A model generated the notes under the pieces. It saw nothing but the letters and a program-made list of their open reading frames with translations, had not been told where the DNA came from and searched no databases. From Solirubrobacterales bacterium (lineage in GTDB: Bacteria; Actinomycetota; Thermoleophilia; Solirubrobacterales; Solirubrobacteraceae), in contig JAFAXX010000036.1 of NCBI GenBank assembly GCA_019240655.1, positions 24,979 through 88,978 on the forward strand: DNA of 64,000 nt, written 5' to 3'. How positions within the stretch are numbered: the stretch's first letter is position 1; every line of letters starts with the position of its first letter. The position numbers and the translations under genes are program-made. Below, piece after piece: positions 814 through 31,101 of the stretch.

Positions 814-1989
814 TCAGAAGTCCGGCTCGGCGGGGAGGCCGACGTAGTTCTCGGCCAGGCTCGCGGCGGCCGCCTGCGAGCGCTCCAGGTAGTCGAGACG
901 CGAGAGCTGGAGCTGCTGCTGGAAGCCCCCGCTCTCGAGCTGGTGCAGCAGCTGCGTCATGTAGTTGGAGAAGTCCTGCGCGCGCCAGACCCGCCGGAGG
1001 GCGCGCTCGGAATACGCATCGAGGCCGTCGCTCGAGCCGGTCTCATACCACCGCACGAGCGCCGCGGCGAGGAGCCGGACGTCGTTGACCGCGAGGTTCA
1101 GGCCCTTGGCGCCGGTCGGAGGAACGATGTGCGCGGCGTCGCCGGCCAGGAACAGGCGGCCGTGGCGCAGCGGCTCGGCCACGAAGCTCCGCATCGGCGT
1201 GACCCCCTTCTCGAAGATCGGTCCCTCGTTGACCCGCCAGCCCTCGCTGGCGTGGCGCATCTGCAGCTCCTCCCAGATGCGCTCGTCCGGCCAGCGCTCG
1301 AGCGGCTCGTCGTTGGGGACCTGCAGATACAGGCGGCTCACCCGCGGGGAGCGCATCGAGTAGAGCGCGAAGCCGTGTTCGTGCCAGGAGTAGATCAGCT
1401 CATCGGTGGCCGGCTCGGCCTCGGCGAGGATCCCCAGCCACGAGAACGGATATACGAACTCGCGCTCGGTCAGGGCGCCGTCGGGAATCGAGCGCCGGCA
1501 GACGCCGTGGAAGCCGTCGCAGCCGGCGATCACGTCGCACTCGAGTTCATGGCCCTCCCCGTCCGCTGAGAACCGGATCCGGGGCTGGTCGGTCTCCACC
1601 TCCGAGAGCTCGACGTCGGAGACCTCGAAGCGAAGCTCGCCGCGCCGGTCGAGCAGCGCGGCGATCAGGTCCTTGACCACCTCCTGCTGGCCGTAGATGG
1701 TGATCCGCCGCCCGGTCAGCTCCTTCATCGGGATGTGCAGCGTCTTGCCCTGGTGGCGCAGGTAGATCCCGCCGTGTTCGAGGCCCTCCCGGTCGAGCCG
1801 CTGCGCGACGTCGAGCTCATGCAGCAGCTCCACCGTGTTGTGCTCGAGCAGGCCGGCGCGGACCCGCTGCTCCACGTACTCCCGGGTGCGGGCCTCGAGC
1901 ACGACTGACTCGATCCCCGCTCGCTCGAGCAGCAGGGCCAGCGTGAGGCCGGCCGGGCCCGCGCCCACGATCCCGACCTGAGTGCGCAT
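814..1989 (-). CDS. pobA: 4-hydroxybenzoate 3-monooxygenase
   Basis: FAD GxGxxG N-terminus (VGIVGAGPAGLTLALLLERAGI), RVRAGLLEHNTVELL, GDAAHIVPPTGAKGLNLAVNDV; full-length match to the PobA pattern. Confidence 0.92.
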   Translation of the reverse strand: MRTQVGIVGAGPAGLTLALLLERAGIESVVLEARTREYVEQRVRAGLLEHNTVELLHELDVAQRLDREGLEHGGIYLRHQGKTLHIPMKELTGRRITIYGQQEVVKDLIAALLDRRGELRFEVSDVELSEVETDQPRIRFSADGEGHELECDVIAGCDGFHGVCRRSIPDGALTEREFVYPFSWLGILAEAEPATDELIYSWHEHGFALYSMRSPRVSRLYLQVPNDEPLERWPDERIWEELQMRHASEGWRVNEGPIFEKGVTPMRSFVAEPLRHGRLFLAGDAAHIVPPTGAKGLNLAVNDVRLLAAALVRWYETGSSDGLDAYSERALRRVWRAQDFSNYMTQLLHQLESGGFQQQLQLSRLDYLERSQAAAASLAENYVGLPAEPDF

Positions 1990-2085: not shown

Positions 2086-3969
2086 GTGCCGCGGGGCCTG
2101 CAAACCCGATGTCGAGAGTGGACGGGTCATGCGCGACCACCCGAGGAGCGCACAGAGTTGAGGTCCTCGCCGGCTCATCCGGCGGGCAGCCCCGATCCCG
2201 TCCCGGGATCGGCCAGGCCCGATCCCGGGACGCTGGACATCCCGGAGGACCGGCATGAGAGGCTCCTGCGGTTGGTCGCCGCCGAAACCTGCGTGCTCCT
2301 CGACGGCGCCACCGGCACCGAGCTGATCGACGTCCGCGGCCAGCGCCCCGAGGTGGAGGAACACCTGTGGGGGCTGAGCGCGATCCTCGAGGCCCCGGCC
2401 GAGGTCAGGGCGGTCCATCGCCGTTACGTCGAGGCCGGCTGCGACGTCGTCTGCACCAACACGTGGGGCCTGCCCACCGCGCTGCGCGACGGCGGCGCGC
2501 ACCTGTCGGAATACCCAGAGCCGGTGCACTGGATGGACGTCGCCCGGCGCGGGGTCAGTCTCGCCCGGACCGCCGCGCGCGACGCCGGCCGGGAGCGCGA
2601 GGTCGCGGTCGCCTTCAGCATCAACGGCGATGTGGACACCCCCGACGGGCCGGAGACGATCCGGCTGCTGGCCCGGGCCTTCGAGCGTGACCGTCCGGAC
2701 TTCGTCCTGCTCGAGACGCTCTCGCTGGTCCGCGACTCGACCTACGCGACCGTCGAGGCGCTGCTCGACACCGGGCTCCCGCTGTGGCTCAGCTTCCGGC
2801 GTTGCCGTCACGGCGTCTGCGGAGTCTACGGCGAGCACTGGGGCGGACCGGAGGGCGACGCGTTCGGCCGCGCCGCGCGCCGCTTCGAGGAGATGGGCGT
2901 CTCGGCGCTGGCGATCAACTGCATCCCACCCGATCACGTGACCGGGATGCTGTCGTGGCTGCGTGACTTCACCGACCTCCCGCTCGGTGTCTATCCGAAC
3001 CTCGGGTATCTGTCGGCGGCGGGCTGGCGCCACGAGGCAAGCATCGGCGGCGAGCGGTTCGCCGAGCTGGCGCTGCAGTGGCGCGAGGAGGGCGCCCAGA
3101 TCATCGGCGGCTGTTGCGGCGTCGGGCCCGAGCACATCGCCGCCGCGCACGAGGCGCTCGCGCCGACCAAGGCCGGTCATGCGCGGCCGGCGGCGCTCCC
3201 CGACGAGTCGGCGCCGCCCCGTGCGAGCAAGCGCTCGCTGCCGCGGTGGACCGACGCCCGCGGCCGCCCGATGTTCCCGCTCGAGTTTCCCGACCTCACG
3301 GTCGAGCCGGGCGTGTTCGTGCCGACCCAGGGCAGCTTCCTGATCTGGAAGTACCTGCATCGCGAAGGCGTCGGCGCCGGTCAGCGCTGCGTCGACATCG
3401 GCTGCGGCAGCGGCCTGCTGACAGTGCAGCTGGCGCTGAACGACGCCGCGCACGTGCACGCGATGGACATCGACGCGGCGGCGACCCGCAACACGCTCAC
3501 CAACGCGTTTCGCAACGGCGTCGCCGACCGGGTGACGGCGGCGCCCCAGGACCTGTTCCCGTGGGTGCCCGAGGAACGCTACGACGTGGTCGTGGCCTCG
3601 CTCTACCAGATGCCGGTCGACCCCTTCGAGCAGGTGGTCACCCATCGCCCGCTCGACTACTGGGGGCGCAACCTGCTCGACCATCTCTTCCGCCTGCTGC
3701 CCGAGGCGCTCGCCGACGACGGGGTGGCCTACGTGATGCAGCTTTCGATAATCGGCGAGCGGCGCACCGCCCAGATCCTCCAGGACCTCGGCTACCGCTC
3801 GCGGGTGGTCGACTTCTCGTTCTTCGAGTTCACCGACCTGTTCAACTCCAAGCGCGAGCAGATCGCGCGGGTCGAGGCGGCCTCCGATGCCTACCACCTG
3901 CAGTGTGGCGGCCAGGACGTGATGGTCAGCTACCTGCTCGAGATCACCCGGGCGCCGGAGAACGCGTAA
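2086..3969 (+). CDS. Homocysteine S-methyltransferase domain fused to class I SAM-dependent methyltransferase domain; start codon uncertain
   Basis: [10 protein letters not shown]... and [20 protein letters not shown] (zinc-binding GGCC motif of homocysteine S-methyltransferases), followed by [16 protein letters not shown] (SAM motif I) and a full Rossmann methyltransferase domain in one frame. Confidence 0.85.
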
Positions 3970-3981
3970 GGTGCCGGGCCG

Positions 3982-4920
3982 ATGAGCGTCACAGTCGTCG
4001 GCTCGATCGCCTTCGATGCGGTCAAGACACCGTTTGGCGAGCGCGCCCGCATGCTCGGTGGGGCGGCCACCCACTTCGCCCTGGCCGCCTCCTTCTTCGA
4101 CGCGGTCAGCGTGGTCGGCCCGGTCGGCGAGGACTTCGGCGAGAGCGAGCTGGCCGTGTTGGCCACCCGCGGAACCAACGTCGAGGACGTCGAGCGCGTC
4201 ACGGGCGGCCAGACGTTTTTCTGGAGCGGCGAGTACGGCTGGGACCTCAACTCGCGGGAGACCCTCCGGACCGACCTCAACGTGTTCGCCGACTTCGCGC
4301 CGAAGCTCTCGGCCGCCAGCCGGGCCGCCGACGTTCTGTTCCTCGCCAACATCCAGCCCGAGCTGCAGCTGAGCGTGCTCGAGCAGTGCACCGGTCCTCG
4401 GCTCGTGGCGATGGATTCCATGAACCTGTGGATCGACATCGCCCGCGAGCCCCTGCTCGAGGTCATCCGCCGCGTCGATTGCGTGATATTCAACGACGCC
4501 GAGCTGCGCCAGCTGACCGGACAGCCGAGCATCCTCGGGGCCGCCCGAGAGCTGCTCGGATGGGGACCGTCGGTGGTGGTGGCCAAGCAGGGCGAGTACG
4601 GCGCGGCGCTGGTCACGCCCGAGGGCTTCTTCGCCCTGCCGGCGTATCCGCTCGCGCGGGTGGTCGATCCGACCGGCGCCGGCGACACGTTCGCGGGCGG
4701 CTTCGTCGGCCACCTCGCCCGCAACCTCGACGAGGCGACGAGCGACCATGTGCTCCGGCAGGCGATGGCCTACGGCACCGCGCTGGCGTCGTTCAATGTG
4801 GAGGAGTTCGGGACCGAGCGCGTCGAGCGGCTGACCGCCGGCGAGATCTACGGCCGGGTCGACGAGCTGAAGCGCATCACGCACTTCGAGCTCGATCCGC
4901 TCTCCCTCGAGACGCGATGA
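3982..4920 (+). CDS. PfkB family carbohydrate/nucleoside kinase
   Basis: [20 protein letters not shown] PfkB signature; N-terminal GSIAFDAV...GGAATHFA. Confidence 0.88.
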
Positions 4921-5771
4921 CGGTCATCGACGGAAGAGCGATCGCCCAGCATCTGCGCGACCGCGTCGCCGAGGAGGTGCGAGCGTTCGCGGCCGAGCAC
5001 GGCCGGCCCCCCGGGCTGGCCACGGTGCTGATCGGCGACGACCCCGCCTCGGCGGTGTACGTGGCCTCGAAGCGCCGCGCCTGCGCCGAGGCCGGGATCA
5101 AGAGCTTTCATCACGAGCTGCCCGCCGGCACCGCGCGTGAGGAGGCGCTCGAGCTGATCGACGAGCTGAACGCCGATCCGCGGGTCAGCGGCATCCTCTG
5201 CCAGCTGCCGGTGCCCGACCCGCTCGACGGCGACGAGCTGACCGGGCGAATCGATCCCGACAAGGACGTCGACGGCCTGACCGTGGTCAACGCGGGCAGG
5301 CTCGCCCTCGGCCTGCCGGGGCTGCGACCGTGCACGCCGGCCGGCGTGATGGTGCTGCTCGGGGAGACCGGCGTCGAGCTGACGGGCGCCCAGGCGGTGG
5401 TCATCGGGCGCTCGAACCTGTTCGGCAAGCCGATGGCGCAGCTGCTGCTGGCCGCCAATGCCACCGTGACCATGTGCCACTCCCGCACGCGCGATCTCGG
5501 CGCCGTCGCCCGGACCGCCGACGTGCTGATCGCGGCGGTCGGACGCGGCCGGATGGTCGAGGGCGACTGGGTGAAGCCCGGCGCGGTGGTGATCGATGTC
5601 GGGGTCAACCGCACCGAGGACGGTCTCATCGGCGACGTCGACTACAACGCGGTGGCGCCCGTGGCCGGCGCGATCACTCCGGTCCCCGGCGGCGTCGGGC
5701 CGATGACCATCGCCTGTCTGATGCGCAACACGCTGCAGGCGGCGCAGATGCGCGTGGCCGCCGAGGCCTGA
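4917..5771 (+). CDS. folD: Bifunctional methylenetetrahydrofolate dehydrogenase/methenyltetrahydrofolate cyclohydrolase
   Basis: ATGA overlap with kinase stop; [73 protein letters not shown]. Confidence 0.95.
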
Positions 5772-5804: not shown

Positions 5805-7232
5805 CTACGCCGGCTCCCACACCGGCACGCCCAAGCCGTGCTCCTGAAGGTCGATCGCGGCCTGGATCAACGGCGCCTCGCAGCCCTGCGGCGCGACCAG
5901 CGAGATCCCGACGCTCTCGGTGACGGGCAGTGCGGCGACCGGCATGCCGGTCATGTCCCACAGCGCGCTGAGGGCGATCATCGGATCGTCGGCGCCGCCG
6001 GCATGGCCGCGCTCGTAGCCGGGCCCGCGGGCGTAGGGCACCAGCGGAAGCGTCGGCTCGAGGACCAGGTCGACCCCGTGGCTGCGAAACGACTCCTCCC
6101 AGGCCGCGGCGCCCACGGCCCGGCGCTGCTGGGCGCCGAAATAGGCCTGGGCGTCGGTGAAGCCGCTGGCCGCCTCGACGAACTCGGCGATCGCCGGCCG
6201 GTAGCGCTCGTGACGGTCGGTGTAGGCGCAGTGGTAGGCCCACACCTCGCTCAGCAGCACGAGGCTCAAGTCGTCCCAGGGCAGGGCCCACGGCGCGGGC
6301 AGCGAGACCACCCGCGCCCCGAGGCGCTCGCAGGCCGCGCGGGCGACTTCGAAGCCCGCCTCGACATGGGCGTCGAGCGCGAGCGCTCCCGGACGGTCGG
6401 TGAGCGCGATCGTCACCCCGGCGAGCGGGCGCGGTCCCGGCCGCGCCGAGCGCGGCAGCTCGCCGAGGGGCGCCGCCGGCGGCATCAGCGGCGTGCGTAC
6501 CGCCTCCCCGCCGGCCATCGCGGTGAGCAGGGCGGCGCAGTCGGCGATCGTCCGCGCCATCGGCCCGGGATGGTCGAGCGAGGGCGCGAGCGGCACGATG
6601 CCGGCGATCGGCAGGCGGCCGTGCCCCGGCTTGATCGCGCTGGTCCCGCAGCAGGCCGACGGGATCCGCAGCGACCCGCACGTGTCGGTGCCGATTGCCG
6701 CCGGCACCATGCGGCAGGCGAGCGCCGCGGCGTTGCCCCCGCTCGAGCCGCCGACCACCCGGTCGAGCGCCCATGGGTTGCCGACCTGGTCGGTTGTCCC
6801 GCCGGCCGCGAACTCGTGCGTGTGCGTGTGGCCGAGGGTCACCATGCCCTGGTCGCGCAGTCGCGCCCACACCGGCGCGTCGGAGGTGGCGACGTTGCCC
6901 TCGAGCACGCGGCTCGAGGCGGTGAGCGGAAGCCCGGCGATCCCGTAGAGGTCCTTGACCGCCAGCGGGACGCCGCACAGGAGCGGCGCTCGCTCGCCTT
7001 CGGACGCCAGGCGCTCGTCCGCGCGGCGGGCGGCGTCGCGGGCGCCCTCGGGATACAGGCGCACCCAGGCGTTGATCGCGTCGGGCGCGCCGTCGAAGCT
7101 GGGCCGTCCGCCGTTGCGCGCCTCGATCCGGGCCAGGCACGCCTCGGTCAACTCGCGCGAGGAGATCTCCCGGCCGCGCAGCAGGAGGGCGGCCTCGAGG
7201 GCGCCGAGGTCCGCCGGATCGCGCGCGCTCAC
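5805..7232 (-). CDS. Amidase signature family protein
   Basis: GVPLAVKDLYG, VVGGSSGGNAAALACRMVPAAIGTDTCGSLRIPSACCG amidase signature; GTGA overlap with the upstream GMC gene. Confidence 0.9.
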   Translation of the reverse strand: MSARDPADLGALEAALLLRGREISSRELTEACLARIEARNGGRPSFDGAPDAINAWVRLYPEGARDAARRADERLASEGERAPLLCGVPLAVKDLYGIAGLPLTASSRVLEGNVATSDAPVWARLRDQGMVTLGHTHTHEFAAGGTTDQVGNPWALDRVVGGSSGGNAAALACRMVPAAIGTDTCGSLRIPSACCGTSAIKPGHGRLPIAGIVPLAPSLDHPGPMARTIADCAALLTAMAGGEAVRTPLMPPAAPLGELPRSARPGPRPLAGVTIALTDRPGALALDAHVEAGFEVARAACERLGARVVSLPAPWALPWDDLSLVLLSEVWAYHCAYTDRHERYRPAIAEFVEAASGFTDAQAYFGAQQRRAVGAAAWEESFRSHGVDLVLEPTLPLVPYARGPGYERGHAGGADDPMIALSALWDMTGMPVAALPVTESVGISLVAPQGCEAPLIQAAIDLQEHGLGVPVWEPA

Positions 7233-8725
7233 ACCGCGGCCGCCACGGTGGCTCGGCTCAGGTACCCGTGCTCGCCGGCGTCGAGGTGATGCGCGAGGCG
7301 ACAGGCCAGCGCCATGATCGTCAGCGAGGGGTTCACCGAGAGCGTCCGCGGGACCACCGAGCCATCGCCGACGAACAGCCGCCGGACGTCGTGGGACTCT
7401 CCGTGGGCGTTGACCACCGAGCGCTCGGGGTCGTTGCCCATGCGGCAGCTGCCCTGCACGTGGGTGCTGACCGGCCCGGTGTGCAGCACGCGCTGGGCTC
7501 CGGAGAGCTCGAGCGCGCGGCGGGCGAACTCGAGCGAGGCTCTCAGCCGCTCCTGCTCGCGCTGGTTCCAGTTGAACGTGAAGCGGTCGCGGCCGCGGTC
7601 GTCGACGACCGCGGTGCCGTTGTTCTCGTCGGTGATCATCGTCAGCAGGCCGATGTAATGGCGGTACTTGCGCACCGCCTCGACTAGCGGCTCGCCCCAC
7701 AGCGGGGCGTCGTTCTCGTCGCACAGCGCGGTCGAGAACCCGATTGGGTCCTGGAGCGTCGAGGCCTCGACCGCGAAGCCGCCGTCCTCGTCCTGGGCGA
7801 ACTTGAGGCAGTGGGCGGTGATCGGATAGACCATGTGGGCGTCCTGGACTTCGTCGAACAGGCCCTGCACGATCCGGGCCGCGTGGAACCCGAGGTTTCG
7901 GCCGATCAGCCGGCTGCTCGACGAGTCGCGGGCCGCCTCGCGCACGCCTGAGCGGATCAGCAGGCCCGGCGTGGCGAGCGCTCCGCCCGCGACCACCACC
8001 ACGTCGGCGTGGACCGTCTGCAGCGCCCCGCCGGCGTCCCCGTACTCGACGCCGGTCGCCTCGGGGCCGTCGCCGCGGTCCTCGATCGTCACCCGGCGCA
8101 CGGTGCAGTTCGCCCGCAGCTCGAGCCGGCCCTCGACCAGCGCCGGCTGGATCCAGGTGTTCTGGGTGTTCTTTCCGGCGTTGGTCGGGCAACCCTGCAG
8201 GCACGAGCCACAGCGCATGCAGTTGTGGTCGGTGTACGCGCGCACCGGCTTCAGCGGTGCCTCGAGCGCCTCGAAGCCGGGAACCACCGTGTGCACGCAC
8301 TTCTGCCAGTCGGTCCGCTCGCGCACGCCGAGCCGTTCCTCGACCCGCTTCAGGTAGGGGAGGAGGTCGGCCTCGGCAAACGGCTCACCCGAGTCGCCGA
8401 GCAGGCCGGCGGCGGCGTGCCATTTCGCGTAGTCCCGCGGGAACGGGCGGAGCGCCACCTTGGTGTTGATCGACGTGGTGCCGCCGACCAGCCGTCCGCG
8501 GAACAGCGGCATCGGCGGCCCGGGCTCGCCGGCCGGCTCGGCGAAGGTCAGCGGCCACCACATGTCGTGGTTGGCGTGCGCCTCCCAGCGCATGTAGTCG
8601 GCCGCCGTGCGGTACGGCCCCGCCTCGAGGAGGAGAACGCGCCGGCCGGCGTCCGCCAGCTCGCCCGCGATGACGCCGCCGCCGGCGCCCGACCCAACCA
8701 CCACGACTTCGTAATGCGCGTTCAT
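7229..8725 (-). CDS. GMC-type FAD oxidoreductase with Cys-rich CMRCGSCLQGCP motif
   Basis: N-terminal VVVVGSGAGGGVIAGELADAG; C-terminal HVQGSCRMGND...LFVGDGSVVPRTLSVNPSLTIMALACRLA. Confidence 0.88.
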   Translation of the reverse strand: MNAHYEVVVVGSGAGGGVIAGELADAGRRVLLLEAGPYRTAADYMRWEAHANHDMWWPLTFAEPAGEPGPPMPLFRGRLVGGTTSINTKVALRPFPRDYAKWHAAAGLLGDSGEPFAEADLLPYLKRVEERLGVRERTDWQKCVHTVVPGFEALEAPLKPVRAYTDHNCMRCGSCLQGCPTNAGKNTQNTWIQPALVEGRLELRANCTVRRVTIEDRGDGPEATGVEYGDAGGALQTVHADVVVVAGGALATPGLLIRSGVREAARDSSSSRLIGRNLGFHAARIVQGLFDEVQDAHMVYPITAHCLKFAQDEDGGFAVEASTLQDPIGFSTALCDENDAPLWGEPLVEAVRKYRHYIGLLTMITDENNGTAVVDDRGRDRFTFNWNQREQERLRASLEFARRALELSGAQRVLHTGPVSTHVQGSCRMGNDPERSVVNAHGESHDVRRLFVGDGSVVPRTLSVNPSLTIMALACRLAHHLDAGEHGYLSRATVAAAV

Positions 8726-9096
8726 GTGCCCACTCCCAGGTATGACCAGTCCTTGTCCAGCCGAGCCGCCAGCGGCGGGGCGAAATCGATCTCCTGCCAC
8801 GCTCCCGGGCCGGAAGCGCCGGGGGCCACGAAGTCGCTGTAGAAGGCCTCGCAGGCCAGCGAGCGGGCGAGCATGAACTCAGGCGAGAAGGCGCGCCCGG
8901 CCATCGCGTCGGCGCCGCCCGCGGCGGCGTCCTCGAGCGAGCGGAAGGCGGCTCGGGTGGCCTCGCGCTCTTCCGCGTCCATCCGGGTCATCAGCGCGTC
9001 GATGTACACCTCGGGACCGACCCGGGCCGAGCCGGGCACAAGCACGTCGCAGACCGAGCGCACCACCGCCGCCTCATGGTCATCGAGAACCAGCAT
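8722..9096 (-). CDS. Small gluconate 2-dehydrogenase subunit 3-like protein
   Basis: ATGA overlap with the downstream GMC gene; LVPG.....VYIDALMTRM and LARSLACEAFYSDFVAPGA...W..IDF resemble subunit 3-type companions of GMC dehydrogenases. Confidence 0.6.
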   Translation of the reverse strand: MLVLDDHEAAVVRSVCDVLVPGSARVGPEVYIDALMTRMDAEEREATRAAFRSLEDAAAGGADAMAGRAFSPEFMLARSLACEAFYSDFVAPGASGPGAWQEIDFAPPLAARLDKDWSYLGVGT

Positions 9097-9121
9097 CGAT
9101 CTCCTCCTGGCTGGATAGCAT
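9080..9121 (-). other. Potential 13-codon upstream ORF (MLSSQEEIDAGSR*) created by duplication of RBS plus start
   Basis: Reverse complement reads GGAGGAGATCG-ATG-CTA-TCC...CGA-TGA and overlaps the ATG at 9096. Confidence 0.45.
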
Positions 9122-9140
9122 CGATCTCCTCCTGGCTGGA
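9092..9140. repeat. 25-bp tandem duplication (agcatcgatctcctcctggctgga x2, separated by one base)
   Basis: 24/24 identical copies at 9092-9115 and 9117-9140. Confidence 0.95.
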
Positions 9141-9259
9141 GGTCAGTGCGCAGCGTAGGGGGCCGCGCCCCCCGAGTTCAACCGTCTGCGCGGATTGCGC
9201 CCTCACCGTGCGCGGGCGGGCGAGCGCCACGAGCGCGAGTCAAATATGCTCGGCTGGCC

Positions 9260-10174
9260 GTGGACGCTCCCTCACAGCGCGCGCGCGAGCTGCTTCGCGG
9301 CGCCTACGACACCCACATGCACATCTCTCCGGACGTGGTCGAGCGCAAGATCGACGACATCTCGCTGGCTCGCCGCTTCCAGGAGCTCGGCATGGACGGG
9401 TTCGTGCTGAAGTCGCACTACACACCGACCGCCGAGCGCGCCGCGGTGGTCCGGGCGGCGGTCCCGGACGTGAACGTGCTCGGCGCCGTCGCGCTGAACC
9501 GGGCGGTGGGTGGGATGAATCCGCTGGCGGTCGAGATCGCCGCACGCGAGGGCGCGCGCACGGTGTGGCTGCCCACGGTCGACTCCGTGAACGAGTCGCA
9601 CGAGCGCGAGGCGCCACCCGGCGCCAACGTGCCCGTGTGGGTCAAGCTTCAGCTCGAGCTGCGCGAGCAGGGAATCGAGATCGAGCCGGTGCCGGTGGTC
9701 GACCAAGCGGGCGGGGTGTTGCCTGAGACGCACGAGGTGCTGAAGATGATCGCCCGCCACGGCATGGTCCTGGCCACGGGCCATCTCAGCCGGGATGAGA
9801 TCTTTGCCGTGGTCGACGCGGCCCGGGAGGCGGGGGTGAGCGAGATCGTGATCACCCACCCGGAGTTTCCCTCCCAGGACCTCTCGGTTGACGACCAGCG
9901 CCGGCTGGCCGAGCGCGGGGCACTGCTCGAGCGGTGCTTCACCACGCCCCACACCGGCAAGGTGGAGTGGGAGCGCTGGATCGGGAACATCCGGGAGACC
10001 GGCACGGAGAACTCGGTGCTCTCGACCGACCTCGGTCAGGTGTTCAACCCGCCGGTCGAGGACGGGATGGGCCTGATGGTGGACCGGCTGCTCGAGGCCG
10101 GGTTCGACGAGCACGAGGTGCATGTGATGGCGGTCGTGAACTCGCGGCGCGTGGCAGGAGCCGATCGGCGGTGA
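9260..10174 (+). CDS. Amidohydrolase-like TIM-barrel protein (DUF6282-like)
   Basis: AYDTHMHISPDVVERK metal-binding start, ATGHLSRDEIF, EIVITHPEFPSQ, LSTDLGQVFNPPVEDGM. Confidence 0.7.
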   Translation: MDAPSQRARELLRGAYDTHMHISPDVVERKIDDISLARRFQELGMDGFVLKSHYTPTAERAAVVRAAVPDVNVLGAVALNRAVGGMNPLAVEIAAREGARTVWLPTVDSVNESHEREAPPGANVPVWVKLQLELREQGIEIEPVPVVDQAGGVLPETHEVLKMIARHGMVLATGHLSRDEIFAVVDAAREAGVSEIVITHPEFPSQDLSVDDQRRLAERGALLERCFTTPHTGKVEWERWIGNIRETGTENSVLSTDLGQVFNPPVEDGMGLMVDRLLEAGFDEHEVHVMAVVNSRRVAGADRR

Positions 10175-10887
10175 GCGAGCGCAGGATGCTCGTGATCGGC
10201 GCTCACTCGGCCGACTTCGTGTGGCGGGCCGGCGGGGCGATCGCGGTCTGCTGCGCCGGCGGCGGCGTGGCCCGCGTGATCGCGCTCTCCTACGGCGAGC
10301 GCGGCGAGTCCGGCGAGCTGTGGAAACAGGAGGGGCAGACGGTCGAGAACGTCAAGCGGGTCCGCCGCGGCGAGGCCGAGCGGGCCGCGGCGGCGCTGGG
10401 CGCCTCGTTCGACAGCCTCGACCTCGGCGACTATCCGCTCGAGATCGACGCCGATGCGCTGATCCGGGTCTCCGAGGTGATCCGCGAGTTCGCGCCCGAC
10501 GTCCTGATCACCCACACCGACACCGACCCGTTCAACCCCGACCACCCGGTGGCCCACGCGGCGGTCGCCCGCGCGCGCTCGCTCGCCGCCGGTGCGGGCG
10601 TGCAGAGCGCGTTCAAGACCGTGACGCCGCCCGAGCTCTTCCTGTTCGAGCCGCACCAGCCCGAGCTCTGCAACTTCACCCCGACCACCTTCGTCGACAT
10701 CACCGCGGTGATCGACCAGAAGGTCGCCGCGATGAGCGAGATGAAGGCGCAGCAGTACCTCCAGACCTACTACCGGGAGCGCGCCGACCACCGCGGCAAC
10801 CACGCCCGCCGCTCCTCGGGCAACTCGGAGATCCGTCAGGCCGAGGCGTTCCAGCGGGCCACGCCGCAGGTGGTGAGCGCGCTATGA
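10171..10887 (+). CDS. PIG-L family hydrolase/hydratase (possible GalB-like 4-oxalomesaconate hydratase)
   Basis: LVIGAHSADFVWRAGG, THTDTDPFNPDHPVAHAAVARAR; GTGA overlap with upstream gene; adjacent to LigK-like aldolase. Confidence 0.7.
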   Translation: MSERRMLVIGAHSADFVWRAGGAIAVCCAGGGVARVIALSYGERGESGELWKQEGQTVENVKRVRRGEAERAAAALGASFDSLDLGDYPLEIDADALIRVSEVIREFAPDVLITHTDTDPFNPDHPVAHAAVARARSLAAGAGVQSAFKTVTPPELFLFEPHQPELCNFTPTTFVDITAVIDQKVAAMSEMKAQQYLQTYYRERADHRGNHARRSSGNSEIRQAEAFQRATPQVVSAL

Positions 10888-11513
10888 GTGATTTGTACGA
10901 GGAGCTGGCGCAGCTGGGCTCCGCGACGGTGTACGAGGCCGGTGGCCGGGGCGGCTACGTCGACGCCGACCTGGTGCAGGTGGTGCCGGGCTCCCGGGCG
11001 GCCGGTCCGGCGCGGACCGTGCTCTGCGGGCAGGACGACAACCTGATGGTGCACGCGGTGATGGCTGAGGTCGAGCCGGGCGAGGTGCTCGTCCTCGCCA
11101 TGCCCGAGCCGCGCGCGGTGGCGCTGGTGGGCGATCTGCTCGCCACGCAGGCCCGAGCGCACGGGGCGGCGGCGATGCTGATCGACGCGTCTGTGCGCGA
11201 TGTGGAGGAGCTGGCCGAGCTGGGGCTGCCGATCTGGGCCCGGTGGGTGCGCGTCCGGGGCGCCGCGAAGGACGTGCCGGGGTCGATCGGCGAGCCCGTG
11301 ACCGTCGGCGGGGCGGTGATCCGGTCCGGAGACGTCGTCGTGCTGGACGCGGACGGGGTCGCGATCATCGAGAGCGAGCGGGTGGAGGAGGTGCTGGCCG
11401 CCGCGCGCGAGCGGGCCGAGCGCGAGCGGGTCAAGCGCGCGAAGCTCGAGGCCGGCGCGCTCTCGTATGAGCTGGACGGCCTGCGGGAACGAGTGCAAGG
11501 AGCACGGACATGA
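10884..11513 (+). CDS. RraA-like / 4-carboxy-4-hydroxy-2-oxoadipate aldolase family (LigK-like)
   Basis: SATVYEAGGRGGYVDADL, GEVLVLAMPEP.AVALVGDLLATQARAHGAAAMLIDASVRDVEEL, GDVVVLDADGVAII. Confidence 0.8.
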   Translation: MSDLYEELAQLGSATVYEAGGRGGYVDADLVQVVPGSRAAGPARTVLCGQDDNLMVHAVMAEVEPGEVLVLAMPEPRAVALVGDLLATQARAHGAAAMLIDASVRDVEELAELGLPIWARWVRVRGAAKDVPGSIGEPVTVGGAVIRSGDVVVLDADGVAIIESERVEEVLAAARERAERERVKRAKLEAGALSYELDGLRERVQGART

Positions 11514-12523
11514 ACGGCGCGGCGCCCGATCTCGCGCACATCGCCCACTGCGAGCTGCTGACTCCATACCCGGACGACAGCCTGCGCTTCTTCGTGGAGC
11601 TGTTCGGGATGCAGATCGAGCACCAGGAGGGCCAGTCGGTGTTCCTGCGCGGCTGGGGCGAGTACCAGCCCTACGGCCTCAAGCTGACCGAGTCGAGGCT
11701 GCCCGGCCTCGGCCACTGTGCGATCCGGGCCTGGAGCCCCGAGGCGCTCGAGCGCCGGGTCGCGGCCATCGAGCCCACCGGTCTCGGCGACGGGTGGAGC
11801 GACGGCGACCACGGCCACGGCCCGGCGTACCGCTTCCGCGACCCCGACGGGCACCACTTCGAGCTGTTCTACGAGCAGGACCGCTACGTCCCGCCGGAGG
11901 AGCTTCGGCCCCGGCTGAAGAACGTGCCCCAGCGCCACGTCGACCGCGGCGCCTCGGTCAAGCGCTTCGACCACATCAACGTCCTCGCCTCCGACGTCAG
12001 GGCCAACCGGGCCTTCTGCACCGAGCAGCTCGGCTTTCGCCTCTACGAGCAGGTCGTGCTCGACAACGGCACCGAGGCCGGGGCATGGATGAGCCTCACG
12101 ATCGCGGCCCACGAGCTGGTCTACACCGCCGACCACGCCGGCGGTCAGGGGCGGCTTCACCACCTCGCGTGGTTCGTCGACACCCGGGAGGAGCTGCTGC
12201 GCGCGGCGGACTTCTTCCTCGACCACGACGTGCCGATCGAGGCGGCACCGTCCAAGCACGCGGTGGCCCAGGGCATGTTCCTCTACGTCTACGAGCCGGC
12301 CGGCAACCGGGTCGAGGTGACCACCGGCACGCACTTCATCTACGACCCCGCGTTCGAGCCGGTGGTGTGGACCGAGGCCGAGCGGGCGCGGGGCCAGGCG
12401 TGGGGAGTGGCGACGGTCGAGACCTTCCACACCTACGGCACCCCGGAGCTCGGCGACAAGCCGCCGGGGCCGCCGATCCCGCCGACCAGCCAGGTCCCGG
12501 AGCTGCCCGGCGCGCTGGCATGA
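11510..12523 (+). CDS. Extradiol ring-cleavage dioxygenase (catechol 2,3-dioxygenase-like, VOC superfamily)
   Basis: Two VOC domains; DPDGHHFELFYE, RLHHLAWFVDTREELLRAADFF, FLYVYEPAGNRVEVTTG; ATGA overlap. Confidence 0.85.
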   Translation: MNGAAPDLAHIAHCELLTPYPDDSLRFFVELFGMQIEHQEGQSVFLRGWGEYQPYGLKLTESRLPGLGHCAIRAWSPEALERRVAAIEPTGLGDGWSDGDHGHGPAYRFRDPDGHHFELFYEQDRYVPPEELRPRLKNVPQRHVDRGASVKRFDHINVLASDVRANRAFCTEQLGFRLYEQVVLDNGTEAGAWMSLTIAAHELVYTADHAGGQGRLHHLAWFVDTREELLRAADFFLDHDVPIEAAPSKHAVAQGMFLYVYEPAGNRVEVTTGTHFIYDPAFEPVVWTEAERARGQAWGVATVETFHTYGTPELGDKPPGPPIPPTSQVPELPGALA

Positions 12524-13143
12524 GTGCCGAGGCGAGCGCCGGCGAGGACCGGCTGCTGATCCGCGAGCTGGTCGAGAACTGGGTGGTGTGGCGCGACGCG
12601 GGCGACTGGGAGCGCTTTGCCACCGTGTGGCACGACGACGGCTACATGATGGCTACCTGGTTTCAGGGGCCGGCGCCCGACTTCATCCGCGTCAGCCGCG
12701 AGGGCTTCGAGCGGGGGGCGAGCACGATCCTGCACTTCCTCGGCGGGAGCTCGGTCGACGTGGCGGGTGAGCGCGCGGTGGCCCAGACCAAGATGACCAT
12801 CGCCCAGCGGGCCGAGGTTCAGGGCGTGCTCTGCGACGTCGTCTGCACGGGGCGCTTCTACGACTTCCTGGAGCGGCGGGCGGGCCGCTGGGGCCTCGTG
12901 CTGCGTCAGCCGATCTACGAGAAGGATCGCCTCGATCCGGTCGATCCGGGCGCCCGGCTCGGGCTCGACCACGAGCGGCTGGCCCGGTTTCCGGCCGGCT
13001 ATCGCCACCTGGCCTACCTGCAATCCTCGCTCGGGTTCGAGGTCAAGCCGGACATGCCCGGGCTGAGCGGACCGGAGGTGGAGGGGCTCTACCGGCGGGG
13101 GGCGCGGTGGCTGGCCGGCGAGCTCGGCGATCCGCGAGGGTGA
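12520..13143 (+). CDS. SnoaL/NTF2-like family protein
   Basis: LLIRELVENWVVWRDAGDWERFATVWHDDGYMMATW SnoaL-like N-terminus; ATGA overlap. Confidence 0.7.
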   Translation: MSAEASAGEDRLLIRELVENWVVWRDAGDWERFATVWHDDGYMMATWFQGPAPDFIRVSREGFERGASTILHFLGGSSVDVAGERAVAQTKMTIAQRAEVQGVLCDVVCTGRFYDFLERRAGRWGLVLRQPIYEKDRLDPVDPGARLGLDHERLARFPAGYRHLAYLQSSLGFEVKPDMPGLSGPEVEGLYRRGARWLAGELGDPRG

Positions 13144-14508: not shown

Positions 14509-15663
14509 TCAGCCCCAGACCTCTTCGGCGGTCTCGACGACGAGCCGCAGCTTGGCCACCTGCTGTTCATAGGTGAGCGCGTTGCCGTCGACGGTCGAGG
14601 AGAATCCGCATTGCGGAGAAAGGCACAGCTGCTCGATCGGGACGTACCTGGCGGCTCGCTCGATCCGGCGCTTGAGCTCTTCCTTCGACTCGAGCTCGCC
14701 GCGCTTGCTGGTGACGAGCCCGAGGACCACGAGCTTTCCGGGCGGCACGAAGCGCAGCGGCTCGAACCCGCCCGAGCGTGCGTCGTCGTACTCGAGGAAG
14801 AAGCCGTCCACGTCCAGCTCTCCGAACAGCGCCTCGGCCACGAAGTCATAGCCGCCCTCGGCCACCCACGAGGAGCGGAAGTTTCCCCGGCACATGTGGG
14901 TGGTCACGACCAGCCCGTCGGGCCGCCGTGCGAGCACCGCGTTGAGATTGCGGATGTACTTCTCGTGCAGATGCTCCGAGTCCTCGCCCTTGCCCGCCAT
15001 CTCCTCGCGTTGGCGGGGGTCGTTGAGATAGGCCAGGCTGATGTCGTCGACCTGCAGATAGCGGCACCCGAGCTCGAACATCGCCTGCAGCTCCTCGGCG
15101 TAGGCGTCGGTCAACTCGGACCAGAACTGCTCGGGGTCCGGGTACACGTCCGCACTGATCATCGCGCGGCCGCCGCGGTAATGGACCATGCTCGGCGAGG
15201 GGATGGTGAGCTTCGGCGTCATTCCGGCCGGTGTCACGGCCTTGAGATACTCGAAGTCCTGAGCGAAGATCGTCTGCTTCAGGTGCACGGGGCCGGCCAC
15301 GTGAACCGCCGCCGGGGTGAACTCGACCACGCCGTCCGGATTGCGGAACTGCACCTGCATGTCTCCGGGCGCCCGCTCGATGCCGCCGAGCGCCAGCACG
15401 AAGTCCATGTGCCAGGAGGAGCGGCGAAACTCGCCGTCGGTGGCCGACTGGAGCCCGACCTCGTGCTGCATCGCGACCGCTGAGCGGATCGCCTCGTCCT
15501 CGACGGCGCGCAGCTCCTCGGGCTCGAGTCGTCCGGCGGCACGCTCGGCGCGGGCGCGGAGCAGCTCGGGCGGGCGCAGCAGGCTGCCGACGTGGTCGGC
15601 CCGGAACGGCGGGGTCGTCCGCCGGCCGGAGGCGTGGATCGCGGTGCTCTGCGGCTCGGGCAT
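14509..15663 (-). CDS. Cobalamin-independent methionine synthase family protein (MetE C-terminal domain only)
   Basis: RADHVGSLLRPPELL, ATDGEFRR, YLQVDDISLAYL, VVTTHMCRGNFRSSW, LCLSPQCGFSSTVDGNALTYEQQVAKLRLVVETAEEVWG. Confidence 0.85.
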   Translation of the reverse strand: MPEPQSTAIHASGRRTTPPFRADHVGSLLRPPELLRARAERAAGRLEPEELRAVEDEAIRSAVAMQHEVGLQSATDGEFRRSSWHMDFVLALGGIERAPGDMQVQFRNPDGVVEFTPAAVHVAGPVHLKQTIFAQDFEYLKAVTPAGMTPKLTIPSPSMVHYRGGRAMISADVYPDPEQFWSELTDAYAEELQAMFELGCRYLQVDDISLAYLNDPRQREEMAGKGEDSEHLHEKYIRNLNAVLARRPDGLVVTTHMCRGNFRSSWVAEGGYDFVAEALFGELDVDGFFLEYDDARSGGFEPLRFVPPGKLVVLGLVTSKRGELESKEELKRRIERAARYVPIEQLCLSPQCGFSSTVDGNALTYEQQVAKLRLVVETAEEVWG

Positions 15664-26108: not shown

Positions 26109-26978
26109 CTATGCCACGCCGGCGCGGAACTGCGCCGCGGTCGTCTCGTAGGCACGGTCGAACGCCTGCTCGATCGGCAGGTCGCGCAGCGCCGCCGAGA
26201 GCACCTCGACTCCCCACGGGCCTCGGTATCCGGCCGCTTGACAGGCCTCGAGGTAGCCGGGGATGTCGAAGTCGCCCTCGCCCGGCAACCGGCGGTGGTT
26301 GACCGTCTCCTCCACGGGATCGGGCATGTTCTCGAGCTGGCCGTCGGAGATCTCCACCCAGGTCAGGTACCGGCTCGGGATGTTGCCCACCTGCTCCGGC
26401 GTGATGCCGAGCTTCGACATGTGCCACGTGTCGACCGCCAGCCCCCCGTTTTCGGCCCCGGCGCCCTCGACGAGCCTCAGCGCCGCGTCGAGATTGTTGG
26501 CCTGCGTGTCGAACGGCGTGATCTCGTAGACCACCTTCGCGTTCGTGTGGTTCGCGGCGTCGCGGCACAGCTCGCCGAACCCTTCGATCAGCTGGTCGAT
26601 CTCGGCCGGGTTGCCGTGGATGTTGCCGACCTTGATGTGGTGCGCGTCGAATGCCGCCGCGGTGTCGAACAGCAGCCGGCGCCGCTCATCGGATGCCGCC
26701 CGCGCCGCATCGCCCCGCGGGAACCAGAAGTTGTCCAGGAACTCGACCTGCAGGTAGCGCAGCCCGGCGTCGTCGAAGATCTGCTTGATCTCCTTGAGCG
26801 TCCGGGTCTCGAGCTGGTGCTCGATGTCGGCGTGCCACAGGCCGAGGCCGGCGAAGCCGACCCGCGCCGCCTGAGCGCATCGCTCGCGCCACTCGAACAG
26901 GCTCCATTCGCGCCCCACATGCACGTCGGTCGGACCGGCAACGGTCCAGTACAGCGCGATCAGCTCGTTCTCGGCCAT
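26109..26978 (-). CDS. Sugar phosphate isomerase/epimerase (xylose isomerase-like TIM barrel)
   Basis: LEIKQIFDDAGLRYLQVEFLDNFW, HIKVGNIHGN, GLAVDTWHMSKLG, WVEISDGQLENMPDPVEETVNHRRLPGEGDFDIPGYLEA. Confidence 0.8.
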   Translation of the reverse strand: MAENELIALYWTVAGPTDVHVGREWSLFEWRERCAQAARVGFAGLGLWHADIEHQLETRTLKEIKQIFDDAGLRYLQVEFLDNFWFPRGDAARAASDERRRLLFDTAAAFDAHHIKVGNIHGNPAEIDQLIEGFGELCRDAANHTNAKVVYEITPFDTQANNLDAALRLVEGAGAENGGLAVDTWHMSKLGITPEQVGNIPSRYLTWVEISDGQLENMPDPVEETVNHRRLPGEGDFDIPGYLEACQAAGYRGPWGVEVLSAALRDLPIEQAFDRAYETTAAQFRAGVA

Positions 26979-28204: not shown

Positions 28205-30037
28205 ATGGCAACGATGACCGACAGAGCGGGAGCGTTTCCGAGCCCGTATGACATCGAGACCCCGCCCGGCTGTGAGGGCTGGGAGGAGATGTACCCGTAC
28301 TACGCGCTGTTCGACGAGCGCCGGCGCGAGACTGACGAGAACCGCTTCTGGTTCTGGAACTCGATGCACTTCCCGATCCCGATGCCGGCCTTCGACGTGA
28401 TCTGCATCGACTCGCCCTACCAGGCGGTCGGGTCGTGGCAGAACCGGGTGTTCGCCGTGCCGCCGGCCATGGGAATCGACTACCGGTGCGTGAACGGCTA
28501 CATCTACATCACCGGCAACCCGGTCACCGACCCAGCGAAGATCGCCGAGCGCGCCGAGTACTTCCAGCGGCGCGCCTCCTACTACTTCGAGAACTGGGAC
28601 GAGCTGTACGGCAAGTGGCGCGCCAGGATGGAGGCGCTGATCGCCGAGCTGCTCTCGCTGCGCGTGCCCGATCTGCCCGAATACGAGCCCGACGAGGTCG
28701 CGTTCGGGGACGACCGCAACACCTCCTTCTACGAGGTGCTGGACGCCTACACGCGCGTGCTTCGGATGGGCGACTTGATGTGGCAGCAGCACTTCGAGTT
28801 CCTGCTGCTGGGCTACGGCGCCTATTCGACGTTCGCCGAGTTCTGCAAGGCGAACCTGCCGGACATCCCCGACCAGCACATAGCGCAGATGGTGGCGGGG
28901 ATCGACGTGATCCTGTTCCGGCCCGACGCCGAGCTCAGGCGCCTGGCGCGGCTGGCCGTGGAGACGGGCGTCGACTCCGCCTTCGTGCAGGGAAGGGAGC
29001 CCGCCGAGATCGAGGCCGAGCTCTCCGGCAGCGACGCCGGCCGCGCGTGGCTGGGCGAGCTCGAGCAGGTCAAGGACCCGTGGTTCAACATGGCCACCGG
29101 CGACGGGCTGACCCACTATTACCGCAACTGGCGCGACGACCCGAGCATCCCGTATGCGTCGCTGATCGGACACATCGGCGCGCTGAAGGCGGGCGAGCCG
29201 ATCGAGCGCCCGACCGAGGAGATCCAGCGCGAGCGCGACCGCCTCGGCGAGGAGTACATGGGGCTGCTCGAAGAGGACTCGCGCCGGACGTTCACCGACC
29301 TGCTGATGCTCTCGCGGACCGTCTTCCCCTACGTCGAGGAGCACAAGTTCTACTGCGACTACTGGTTCCTGACCAACTGGTGGAACAAGCTGCGCGAGTT
29401 CGGCGCGCTGCTCGCCCGCCATGGCTTCCTCGAGGACGGCGAGGAGGACGTCTTCCATCTCAGCCGCTACGAGGTGGCCTCGGCGCTGGACGAGCTCGTG
29501 CTGAGCTGGGCGACCGGCGGCCAGCCGCTCGGGCCGCGGCACTGGCCTCAGATCGTGGCCCGGCGCAAGTCGCTGCTGGCCAAGCTCGGCCAGTGGTCGC
29601 CGCCGCCGGCGCTCGGCGTCGTGCCCGAGGCGGTGACCGACCCGATGACGATCATGCTCTGGGGCGTGACGACCGAGCGGGTGCAGGAGTGGGCCCGCCA
29701 CCAGGACGGCGGTGTGCGCTTCAGTGGCGCGGCGGCGTCGCCGGGGACGGTCGAGGGCGTGGCCCGCGTCGTGCGCTCGGTGGAGGAGATCCGCTCGGTG
29801 CGGGACGGCGAGATCCTCGTATGCGGCAGCACCTCGCCGGCCTGGGCGCCGATCTTCTCCAAGATCAAGGCCACCGTGACCGACGTGGGGGGCGTGATGT
29901 CGCACGCGGCGATCGTCTGCCGCGAGTACGGGCTGCCCGCGGTGGTCGGCACCGGGCGCGCGAGCTCGCAGATCCGCACGGGTCAGACAATCCGCGTCGA
30001 CGGGTCCGAAGGCGTCGTCACGGTGATCTCGTCGTGA
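28205..30037 (+). CDS. PEP-synthase-like phosphohistidine (mobile domain) subunit, phenylphosphate synthase / CreI-like architecture
   Basis: C-terminal ATVTDVGGVMSHAAIVCREYGLPAVVGTGRAS (catalytic His motif of PEP-utilizers mobile domain); ~390-aa N-terminal helical region and no recognisable C-terminal PEP/pyruvate TIM barrel. Confidence 0.8.
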   Translation: MATMTDRAGAFPSPYDIETPPGCEGWEEMYPYYALFDERRRETDENRFWFWNSMHFPIPMPAFDVICIDSPYQAVGSWQNRVFAVPPAMGIDYRCVNGYIYITGNPVTDPAKIAERAEYFQRRASYYFENWDELYGKWRARMEALIAELLSLRVPDLPEYEPDEVAFGDDRNTSFYEVLDAYTRVLRMGDLMWQQHFEFLLLGYGAYSTFAEFCKANLPDIPDQHIAQMVAGIDVILFRPDAELRRLARLAVETGVDSAFVQGREPAEIEAELSGSDAGRAWLGELEQVKDPWFNMATGDGLTHYYRNWRDDPSIPYASLIGHIGALKAGEPIERPTEEIQRERDRLGEEYMGLLEEDSRRTFTDLLMLSRTVFPYVEEHKFYCDYWFLTNWWNKLREFGALLARHGFLEDGEEDVFHLSRYEVASALDELVLSWATGGQPLGPRHWPQIVARRKSLLAKLGQWSPPPALGVVPEAVTDPMTIMLWGVTTERVQEWARHQDGGVRFSGAAASPGTVEGVARVVRSVEEIRSVRDGEILVCGSTSPAWAPIFSKIKATVTDVGGVMSHAAIVCREYGLPAVVGTGRASSQIRTGQTIRVDGSEGVVTVISS

Positions 30038-31101
30038 GCGACGCCGCCTACACCCGCCCGCTGACCGAGCTGCGGAGCAGCGACGAGTCTTCGGTCGGCG
30101 GCAAGAGCGCCAGCCTCGGCGAGCTGCTGGCGGCCGAGATCCCGGTTCCCCCGGGGTTCGCGCTCACCACCGCGGCGTTCACCGCGTTCGTGCGGGACTC
30201 GGGACTCGACGGGCGAATCGCCGGGGCGATGGCGCAGGTAGCGCCGGGCGACGTCGAGGCGATCGGCGCCGCCTCCCACCGCGTGAGCGAGGCGATGCAC
30301 TCCGCGCCGGTCCCGGAGGGGGTCCGCGAGGAGGTCTCGCGCCGGTACGCCGAGCTGGCCGAGACGGCTGGGGTGCAGGAGCCGCCGGTGGCGGTCCGCT
30401 CGAGCGCGCTCGGCGAGGACAGCGAGGACGCCACCTTTGCCGGCCAGCAGGAGACGTATCTGTGGGTGCGCGGCGCCGAGCACGTCTGCGATGCGGTGCG
30501 CGACTGCTGGGTCAGCCTCTACAGTCCGCCCGCGATCAGCTATCGGGCCCGCCTCGGCCGGGACCAGCGCGATGCCGCCATGGGCGTGACCGTCCAGCTG
30601 ATGGTCGACGCCGAGGTCTCCGGGGTGATGTTCACCTGCAACCCGGTGAGCGGCGACCCGAGCATGGTCGCGATCAACGCCAGCTGGGGCCTCGGCCTGG
30701 CCGTCGTCGGCGGCGAGGTCACGCCGGACGACTACCTGGTCAGCAAGATCACCCGCGAGGTGGTCAAGGCGCAGGTGCACCGCAAGGACGTCGAGTACGT
30801 CCCCGACCCGGGCGGCCGCGGGGCGGTTCGCGTCGCCGTCCCCGAGGAGCGCGCCGGCGAGCGTTGCCTGGACGACGCGGCGCTCGGCGCCCTGGTCGCG
30901 GTCGCCCGGCGGGTTGAGAGCCACTTCCGCTCCCACCAGGACATCGAGTGGGCGATCGCCCGCGGCGGCCCCGATATCTACGTGGTGCAATCCCGTCCGG
31001 TCACCGCGGTGGCCAAGCCGGCGCAGAAACCGCCGGCGGCCTCGGCGCTGTCACTGGTGATGAGCCAGTTTGGCGTGGCCCCGAAGCGCGATGCTGACTG
31101 A
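30034..31101 (+). CDS. PEP-synthase-like ATP-grasp (PPDK_N) subunit
   Basis: VGGKSASLGELLAAEIPVPPGFALTTAAF, VAVRSSALGEDSEDATFAGQQETYLWVRG, VMFTCNPVSGDPS, DIEWAI...IYVVQSRPVT. Confidence 0.88.
   Translation: MSDAAYTRPLTELRSSDESSVGGKSASLGELLAAEIPVPPGFALTTAAFTAFVRDSGLDGRIAGAMAQVAPGDVEAIGAASHRVSEAMHSAPVPEGVREEVSRRYAELAETAGVQEPPVAVRSSALGEDSEDATFAGQQETYLWVRGAEHVCDAVRDCWVSLYSPPAISYRARLGRDQRDAAMGVTVQLMVDAEVSGVMFTCNPVSGDPSMVAINASWGLGLAVVGGEVTPDDYLVSKITREVVKAQVHRKDVEYVPDPGGRGAVRVAVPEERAGERCLDDAALGALVAVARRVESHFRSHQDIEWAIARGGPDIYVVQSRPVTAVAKPAQKPPAASALSLVMSQFGVAPKRDAD

Follow-up and report, generated by a model that had tools for sequence, protein, structure and literature searches.

A five-gene set from a Solirubrobacterales bacterium that probably opens lignin-derived gallate-like rings with enzymes of unexpected families

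The closest described systems to the locus that we analyze here are the Pseudomonas putida gallate pathway (GalA, GalD, GalB, GalC) and the protocatechuate 4,5-cleavage operons (LigAB, LigC, LigI, LigJ, LigK; in Pseudarthrobacter pcaA-E, PMC8431788). The gallate dioxygenases and protocatechuate 4,5-dioxygenases described so far belong to the LigB type (PMC4250580). Our locus lies in a stretch of 64,000 nucleotides (the window) from contig JAFAXX010000036.1 of a Solirubrobacterales bacterium. Its five tightly packed genes probably serve to open gallate-like rings derived from lignin and to turn them into central metabolites, with enzymes of unexpected families for ring-opening, for hydrolysis and for a side decarboxylation. 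Five plus-strand coding sequences fill positions 9260-13143:

9260..10174, plus strand: DUF6282 amidohydrolase-superfamily protein, 304 amino acids, proposed lactonase/hydrolase for a LigI-like step (from PF19799, an AF2 model and Foldseek)
10171..10887, plus strand: PIG-L-fold protein, 238 amino acids, predicted GalB-like 4-oxalomesaconate hydratase (from the 5cgz match and GalB residues)
10884..11513, plus strand: LigK-like protein, 209 amino acids, predicted 4-carboxy-4-hydroxy-2-oxoadipate aldolase (from NF006731, 3noj and residues)
11510..12523, plus strand: type I (VOC) extradiol dioxygenase, 337 amino acids (from TIGR03211, PDB matches and metal ligands)
12520..13143, plus strand: SnoaL_4-fold protein, 207 amino acids, proposed cofactor-free hydroxybenzoate decarboxylase (from PPP2/AGDC1 matches)

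Neighboring genes share four bases of stop and start codon, once as GTGA (at 10171) and three times as ATGA (at 10884, 11510 and 12520); the junction letters in gene order are GGTGAGC, TATGAGT, CATGAAC and CATGAGT. A first-pass annotation of this DNA had described five plus-strand genes joined by such overlaps, which the coordinates and junction letters confirm. Pfam agrees with the families it had named (DUF6282 233 bits, PIG-L 72, RraA-like for the LigK-like protein 119, Glyoxalase for the VOC dioxygenase 77, SnoaL_4 55). The DUF6282 gene most likely starts with the GTG at 9260, in agreement with its homologues.

While families, catalytic residues and gene linkage are read from sequence, the reactions combine into the following proposal. 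The VOC enzyme would cleave the ring of gallate, or of syringate-derived 3-O-methylgallate, next to its diol and yield 4-oxalomesaconate or its lactone or ester form. The DUF6282 protein would hydrolyze the lactone (2-pyrone-4,6-dicarboxylate) or the ester to 4-oxalomesaconate, which the GalB-like PIG-L protein would hydrate to 4-carboxy-4-hydroxy-2-oxoadipate. The LigK-like aldolase would split this compound into pyruvate and oxaloacetate. The SnoaL protein would add a separate and optional step, the cofactor-free decarboxylation of a hydroxybenzoate in the same network. That the operon encodes such a 4-oxalomesaconate-type lower pathway, fed by VOC opening of a gallate-type ring and with SnoaL standing apart, is a reading we hold with slightly better than even confidence.

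The LigK-like protein is firmly placed, by catalytic residues that it keeps, as a predicted 4-carboxy-4-hydroxy-2-oxoadipate aldolase. It scores just above the cutoff of the equivalog model NF006731 (180.1 bits, cutoff 179), does not reach that of TIGR02798 (168.9 bits, cutoff 304.5) and matches 3noj with 150 bits. Residues R40, N71, R123, D124, R195 and E199 are conserved. Of these, R123 and the two metal ligands, D124 and E199, have described roles in HMG/CHA aldolases (PMC5065237) and are invariant in 28 homologues and the window protein.

The PIG-L protein is also firmly placed, as a putative GalB-like 4-oxalomesaconate hydratase. Its Pfam family is named after GlcNAc-PI de-N-acetylase, and one could argue that the protein is an N-deacetylase and that no aromatic pathway is encoded at all. 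This is scarcely credible. The protein matches 5cgz, the solved structure of the 4-oxalomesaconate hydratase GalB, with 204 bits and sugar deacetylases with about 25 bits, and we reject a deacetylase, which the first-pass annotation had named as a finding that would refute its reading, on this ground, as far as sequence can tell. It also carries the AHSADF motif of GalB and not the deacetylase-type AHPDD, and its gene lies beside LigK in every module locus. Sixteen His, Asp and Glu residues of GalB are invariant in 26 homologues and the window protein, including H10, D13, H113, D122 and H123 (GalB numbering); H10, D13 and H123 are assigned to the metal site by homology.

Our survey covered 201 genomes of the order Solirubrobacterales, 26 of which carry the module with PIG-L, and in nearly all of these DUF6282, PIG-L, LigK and VOC are clustered. 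The first four genes are adjacent and in the same order in some 25 further Solirubrobacterales genomes, in Rubrobacter and in Thermomicrobium; Thermus and Meiothermus have a variant order. Because order and adjacency are kept across genomes, the arrangement is far beyond chance. The fifth gene (SnoaL) adjoins the others in some close relatives only. In relatives a GntR gene is found next to the module, and the Thermus copy is located on plasmid pTHEOS01, with PobA and a ring-hydroxylating dioxygenase beside it.

Judged by its sequence, the dioxygenase belongs to the type I (VOC) extradiol enzymes and not to the LigB type: Pfam gives a Glyoxalase/VOC domain, and the LigB-type fold is not present in the protein. 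The best PDB matches are 9wgj (361 bits), 7q2a/3lm4 (277 bits) and the classical 1mpy (132 bits). On alignment the metal ligands H155, H218 and E269 (2-His-1-Glu) are kept, and together with Y259 they are invariant in 18 module homologues. Missing ligands were the other outcome that the first-pass annotation had named as refuting its reading, and as far as sequence shows this did not occur. These matches and conserved residues, with those of PIG-L and LigK, support the earlier idea that a VOC-type enzyme serves a GalB/LigK lower pathway in place of a LigB-type one. Since known dioxygenases for gallate and protocatechuate are LigB-type, we infer the role of the VOC enzyme, its substrate and its cleavage site from the neighboring genes, and for the class of gallate dioxygenases we propose it as an activity analogue only. 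It could also be an ordinary catechol 2,3-dioxygenase whose neighbors serve some other purpose. Its score against TIGR03211, the catechol 2,3-dioxygenase model, is just under the cutoff (298.7 bits, cutoff 320.2), which the Thermus orthologue passes with 332.2 bits. However, hydroxymuconic semialdehyde hydrolase/dehydrogenase and 2-oxopentenoate hydratase were not recognised in the adjoining genes, and the enzyme is tightly linked to GalB/LigK-type genes in several phyla. We consider an ordinary catechol 2,3-dioxygenase very unlikely.

Gallate or 3-O-methylgallate is favored over protocatechuate for the following reasons. First, among the 201 genomes LigM/DesA O-demethylases were found in 11, each of which also carries the module (P 2e-11; this and the other P values and counts ignore shared ancestry beyond one genus). 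Within the window's genus the O-demethylases occur in 10 of 12 module genomes and in none of the eight without the module (P 4e-4). Second, the intradiol protocatechuate dioxygenase PcaH is present in 25 of the 26 module genomes, including the host genome, while only seven genomes, all with the module, contain a DUF1932 dehydrogenase. This dehydrogenase, a candidate for the aldehyde-stage oxidation needed in protocatechuate 4,5-cleavage, is missing in 19 of the 26, again including the host. Gallate and 3-O-methylgallate need no aldehyde-stage dehydrogenase. In the favored picture the module exists alongside the protocatechuate route and can mostly do without a dehydrogenase, as these two substrates would lead one to expect. 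The host genome itself holds three LigM/DesA homologues, PcaGH-like genes and only a weak LigB match; 4-oxalomesaconate (OMA) tautomerase (GalD) was not found in it. The first-pass annotation had proposed a protocatechuate/gallate-like 4,5-route; its gallate-type half is the one we prefer, and protocatechuate as the main substrate is disfavored by the intradiol enzyme and the mostly missing dehydrogenase.

Protocatechuate 4,5-cleavage nevertheless deserves to be weighed. The VOC enzyme would open the ring, a dehydrogenase (of DUF1932 type where present) would make 2-pyrone-4,6-dicarboxylate, and DUF6282, PIG-L and LigK would follow. Loci in Thermus and Meiothermus group PobA, VOC, DUF6282, PIG-L, LigK and the DUF1932 dehydrogenase, and here protocatechuate is a good alternative. 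With the dehydrogenase, each step of the known operon has its counterpart in the gene set (PMC8431788 lists the genes), and the restriction of the DUF1932 gene to module genomes fits as well. Against it stand the widespread intradiol enzyme and the many module genomes that do without the dehydrogenase. Moreover, relatives of catechol 2,3-dioxygenase would be expected to cleave protocatechuate at 2,3, not 4,5. On balance we hold this route to be unlikely, though not negligible.

PF19799 is the only Pfam match of the DUF6282 protein, a sequence search of the PDB gave no matches, and no paper naming DUF6282 was found in the open literature searched. Its AF2 model (pLDDT 95.8) finds only remote amidohydrolase-superfamily barrels in a Foldseek search of the PDB; rank 4 is 2ffi, the P. 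putida 2-pyrone-4,6-dicarboxylate (PDC) hydrolase (TMt 0.64), and phosphotriesterase-like lactonases rank below it. Across 38 homologues, residues D17, H21, H53, H175 and D257 do not vary.

Enzyme swaps between loci add to this. A Nocardioides locus (L102) has VOC, LigK and a LigJ-like (Amidohydro_2) protein beside DUF6282 and the DUF1932 dehydrogenase, and no PIG-L. A Roseomonas locus (L032) joins LigK and VOC with a LigI-like hydrolase, the DUF1932 gene and a LigB-type dioxygenase, and has no DUF6282. A Propionibacteriales locus (L137) combines LigK, OMA tautomerase (474 bits, cutoff 440), VOC, LigM (884 bits, cutoff 580) and DUF6282. Taken together, the loci are most simply explained by a 4-oxalomesaconate pathway where DUF6282 would stand in for LigI and PIG-L for LigJ; the LigI and LigJ assignments in L032 and L102 rest on family membership and our own reading of the sequences. 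DUF6282 did not align significantly with the LigI-like protein of L032, which is of the Amidohydro_2 type. A hydratase role for DUF6282 is less likely, because the LigJ-like protein adjoins it in L102. A LigI-like hydrolase, as suggested earlier, is the most economical guess from fold matches and enzyme swaps. A second DUF6282 group, 30-41% identical, occurs without PIG-L or LigK in other members of the order (L034, L039, L042, L044, L057); several of its genes are close to genes for molybdopterin dehydrogenase or aldehyde dehydrogenase.

For the SnoaL protein the suggestion of a hydratase or tautomerase is not borne out, and we reject it: fold and residues match cofactor-free hydroxybenzoate decarboxylases. 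The only strong PDB matches, over nearly the whole length, are PPP2 (91 bits) and the fungal gallate decarboxylase AGDC1 (87 bits). With the structure model (pLDDT 83), Foldseek ranks 1-10 are all AGDC1/PPP2 (E<=6e-14), and the next match follows at 4e-7. Complete orthologues conserve W35, R39, D40, T60, W61, H86, Y150 and Q192, and the His-Asp dyad and Trp clamp of AGDC1/PPP2 (H86, D40, W35, W61) are thereby kept; the roles of substrate-binding and catalytic residues in the AGDC1 family are described in PMC7862292. A cofactor-free hydroxybenzoate decarboxylase is probable. All complete bacterial orthologues differ from AGDC1 at three positions (E88 to Leu, Y146 to Arg, V148 to Pro), which sets the protein in a bacterial branch of the AGDC1/PPP2 family, possibly with another substrate and without a potassium site. 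In AGDC1, E88 is an essential potassium ligand and E88A is dead (PMC7862292), and Y146 is a pocket residue beside the third hydroxyl.

The SnoaL decarboxylase could also feed the VOC enzyme, by turning gallate into pyrogallol (or protocatechuate into catechol), after which VOC would open the decarboxylated ring and PIG-L and LigK would take decarboxylated analogues. SnoaL overlaps VOC in the window and lies directly 3' of it in L038, L074, L077 and L192; elsewhere it is unlinked, apart from L059, where it lies about 1.2 kb upstream of DUF6282. Of the 201 genomes, 13 have a SnoaL orthologue, and the module is present in 12 of these 13 (P 2e-11); within the window's genus the orthologue occurs in 10 of 12 module genomes and in none of the eight others. 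That VOC resembles catechol 2,3-dioxygenase would also suit such a scheme. But SnoaL is missing from 14 of the 26 module genomes, and the core therefore works without it; PIG-L and LigK resemble enzymes that act on carboxylated intermediates, and Arg at the Y146 position means that the substrate may differ. We regard this scheme as rather improbable and take SnoaL as accessory to the core module. In the genome G183, which lacks the module, the SnoaL orthologue (L194:5024-11119) is clustered with a shikimate-dehydrogenase-like gene and with intradiol-catechol-dioxygenase-related and iron-alcohol-dehydrogenase-related genes, which, to go by these families, is again an aromatic context. On contig C80 the host genome has a 33% identical SnoaL paralogue (L202:7968-8759), whose neighbors are a further VOC-like protein and a GntR regulator.

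Besides the shared ancestry mentioned above, several observations weigh against a gallate-type pathway. LigM/DesA is missing in 15 of the 26 module genomes. PobA, which points to protocatechuate, is present in 25 of the 26 and adjacent in Thermus and Meiothermus. Many actinomycetes carry DUF6282-PIG-L-LigK with no dioxygenase nearby; in Micromonospora, Streptomyces and others, DUF6282, frequently accompanied by PIG-L and LigK, adjoins ABC transporter genes, mostly with no dioxygenase close by. One genus (L065-L069) has Tyr and Asn in place of the candidate DUF6282 metal ligands H19 and H200, and the metal site of these module proteins may be reduced or absent. Finally, sequence models place the VOC enzyme near catechol 2,3-dioxygenase, the literature searched yielded no description of a VOC-type gallate dioxygenase, and the proposed activity has no precedent that we found among the known, LigB-type enzymes (PMC4250580).

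A wider claim is more tentative, and we rate it below even chances. The gallate-type route may be built largely from non-orthologous enzymes, with a VOC enzyme as the first of its type to open gallate or 3-O-methylgallate, a DUF6282 protein as lactonase in place of LigI, and a bacterial decarboxylase branch without the potassium ligand; its core would occur in Actinomycetota, Deinococcota and Chloroflexota, hidden under "catechol 2,3-dioxygenase" and "DUF6282" annotations. Solirubrobacterales are common, poorly cultured soil bacteria. If the claim is true, it explains their possible use of lignin-derived syringyl units, gives a domain of unknown function, DUF6282, a function, and many proteins annotated as catechol 2,3-dioxygenase may open gallate-type rings. 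Lignin conversion, where enzymes dependent on prenylated flavin mononucleotide (prFMN) are difficult to use on account of their cofactor needs (PMC7862292), would profit from a bacterial hydroxybenzoate decarboxylase that is cofactor-free.

The surroundings of the operon contain the following features:

9097..9259, no strand: divergent intergenic region, presumed control region (from the sequence)
7229..9096, minus strand: GMC oxidoreductase and gluconate-2-dehydrogenase-subunit-3-like gene, divergent, context (from profile matches and synteny)
814..1989, minus strand: PobA-like 4-hydroxybenzoate 3-monooxygenase, context outside the operon (from NF006091, TIGR02360 and PDB PobA)
14509..15663, minus strand: MetE-like methyltransferase (PRK06520), context (from NF005085, 447.6 bits, cutoff 313)

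The intergenic region lacks the GntR gene of the relatives' module. A perfect 24-base tandem duplication (AGCATCGATCTCCTCCTGGCTGGA, period 25) at 9092-9140 includes both the ribosome-binding site and the start codon of the gluconate-2-dehydrogenase-subunit-3-like gene, which is divergently transcribed. This gene and its GMC oxidoreductase partner are syntenic with the module in the close relatives L076 and L078 (59-70% identity), and the MetE-like gene is linked to the module or to SnoaL in some relatives (L049, L199). The PobA-like protein scores 572.6 bits with NF006091 (cutoff 351), 505.1 with TIGR02360 (cutoff 538.7) and 447 with PDB PobA. We rejected a gallate-forming variant, since the protein is an ordinary match to structurally known 4-hydroxybenzoate hydroxylases and keeps the ENYVGLP tyrosine, which we take to be Y385; by prediction it should make protocatechuate. 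Positions 2272-5771 hold a one-carbon gene group (a homocysteine S-methyltransferase domain fused to a class I methyltransferase domain, then PfkB kinase and FolD), and the host genome has several folate-dependent O-demethylase homologues. At 26109-26978 lies an AP_endonuc_2 protein weakly similar to the 3-dehydroshikimate dehydratase QuiC (59.8 bits). At 28205-34403 PEP-utiliser (PRK08296) and PPDK_N proteins form two overlapping genes, followed by biotin carboxylase- and carboxyltransferase-like genes, the last of which was confirmed as pyruvate carboxylase B-like.

The operon shares with the P. putida gallate pathway a GalB-type PIG-L hydratase and a LigK/GalC-type aldolase, the lack of need for a dehydrogenase, and a genome that also has a protocatechuate intradiol route. 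It differs in its type I VOC dioxygenase where P. putida has the LigB-type GalA, in the absence of a recognized GalD from the host genome, and in the additional DUF6282 and SnoaL genes. The protocatechuate 4,5-cleavage operons are likewise transcription-unit-like sets with a homologous aldolase and analogous hydrolase and hydratase steps, but dioxygenase, candidate lactonase and hydratase all belong to other families in the window, where the dehydrogenase is absent. Catechol 2,3-dioxygenases (TIGR03211; 7q2a/3lm4, 9wgj, 1mpy) have the fold and metal ligands of the window's VOC enzyme, which is linked to GalB/LigK and not to catechol meta-pathway genes. The fungal cofactor-free gallate/protocatechuate decarboxylases AGDC1 and PPP2 (PMC7862292) resemble the SnoaL protein over its whole length, in fold, His-Asp dyad, Trp clamp, Arg39, Thr60, Tyr150 and Gln192; unlike them, the bacterial orthologues carry the Leu, Arg and Pro replacements described above, and the gene stands in a bacterial operon.

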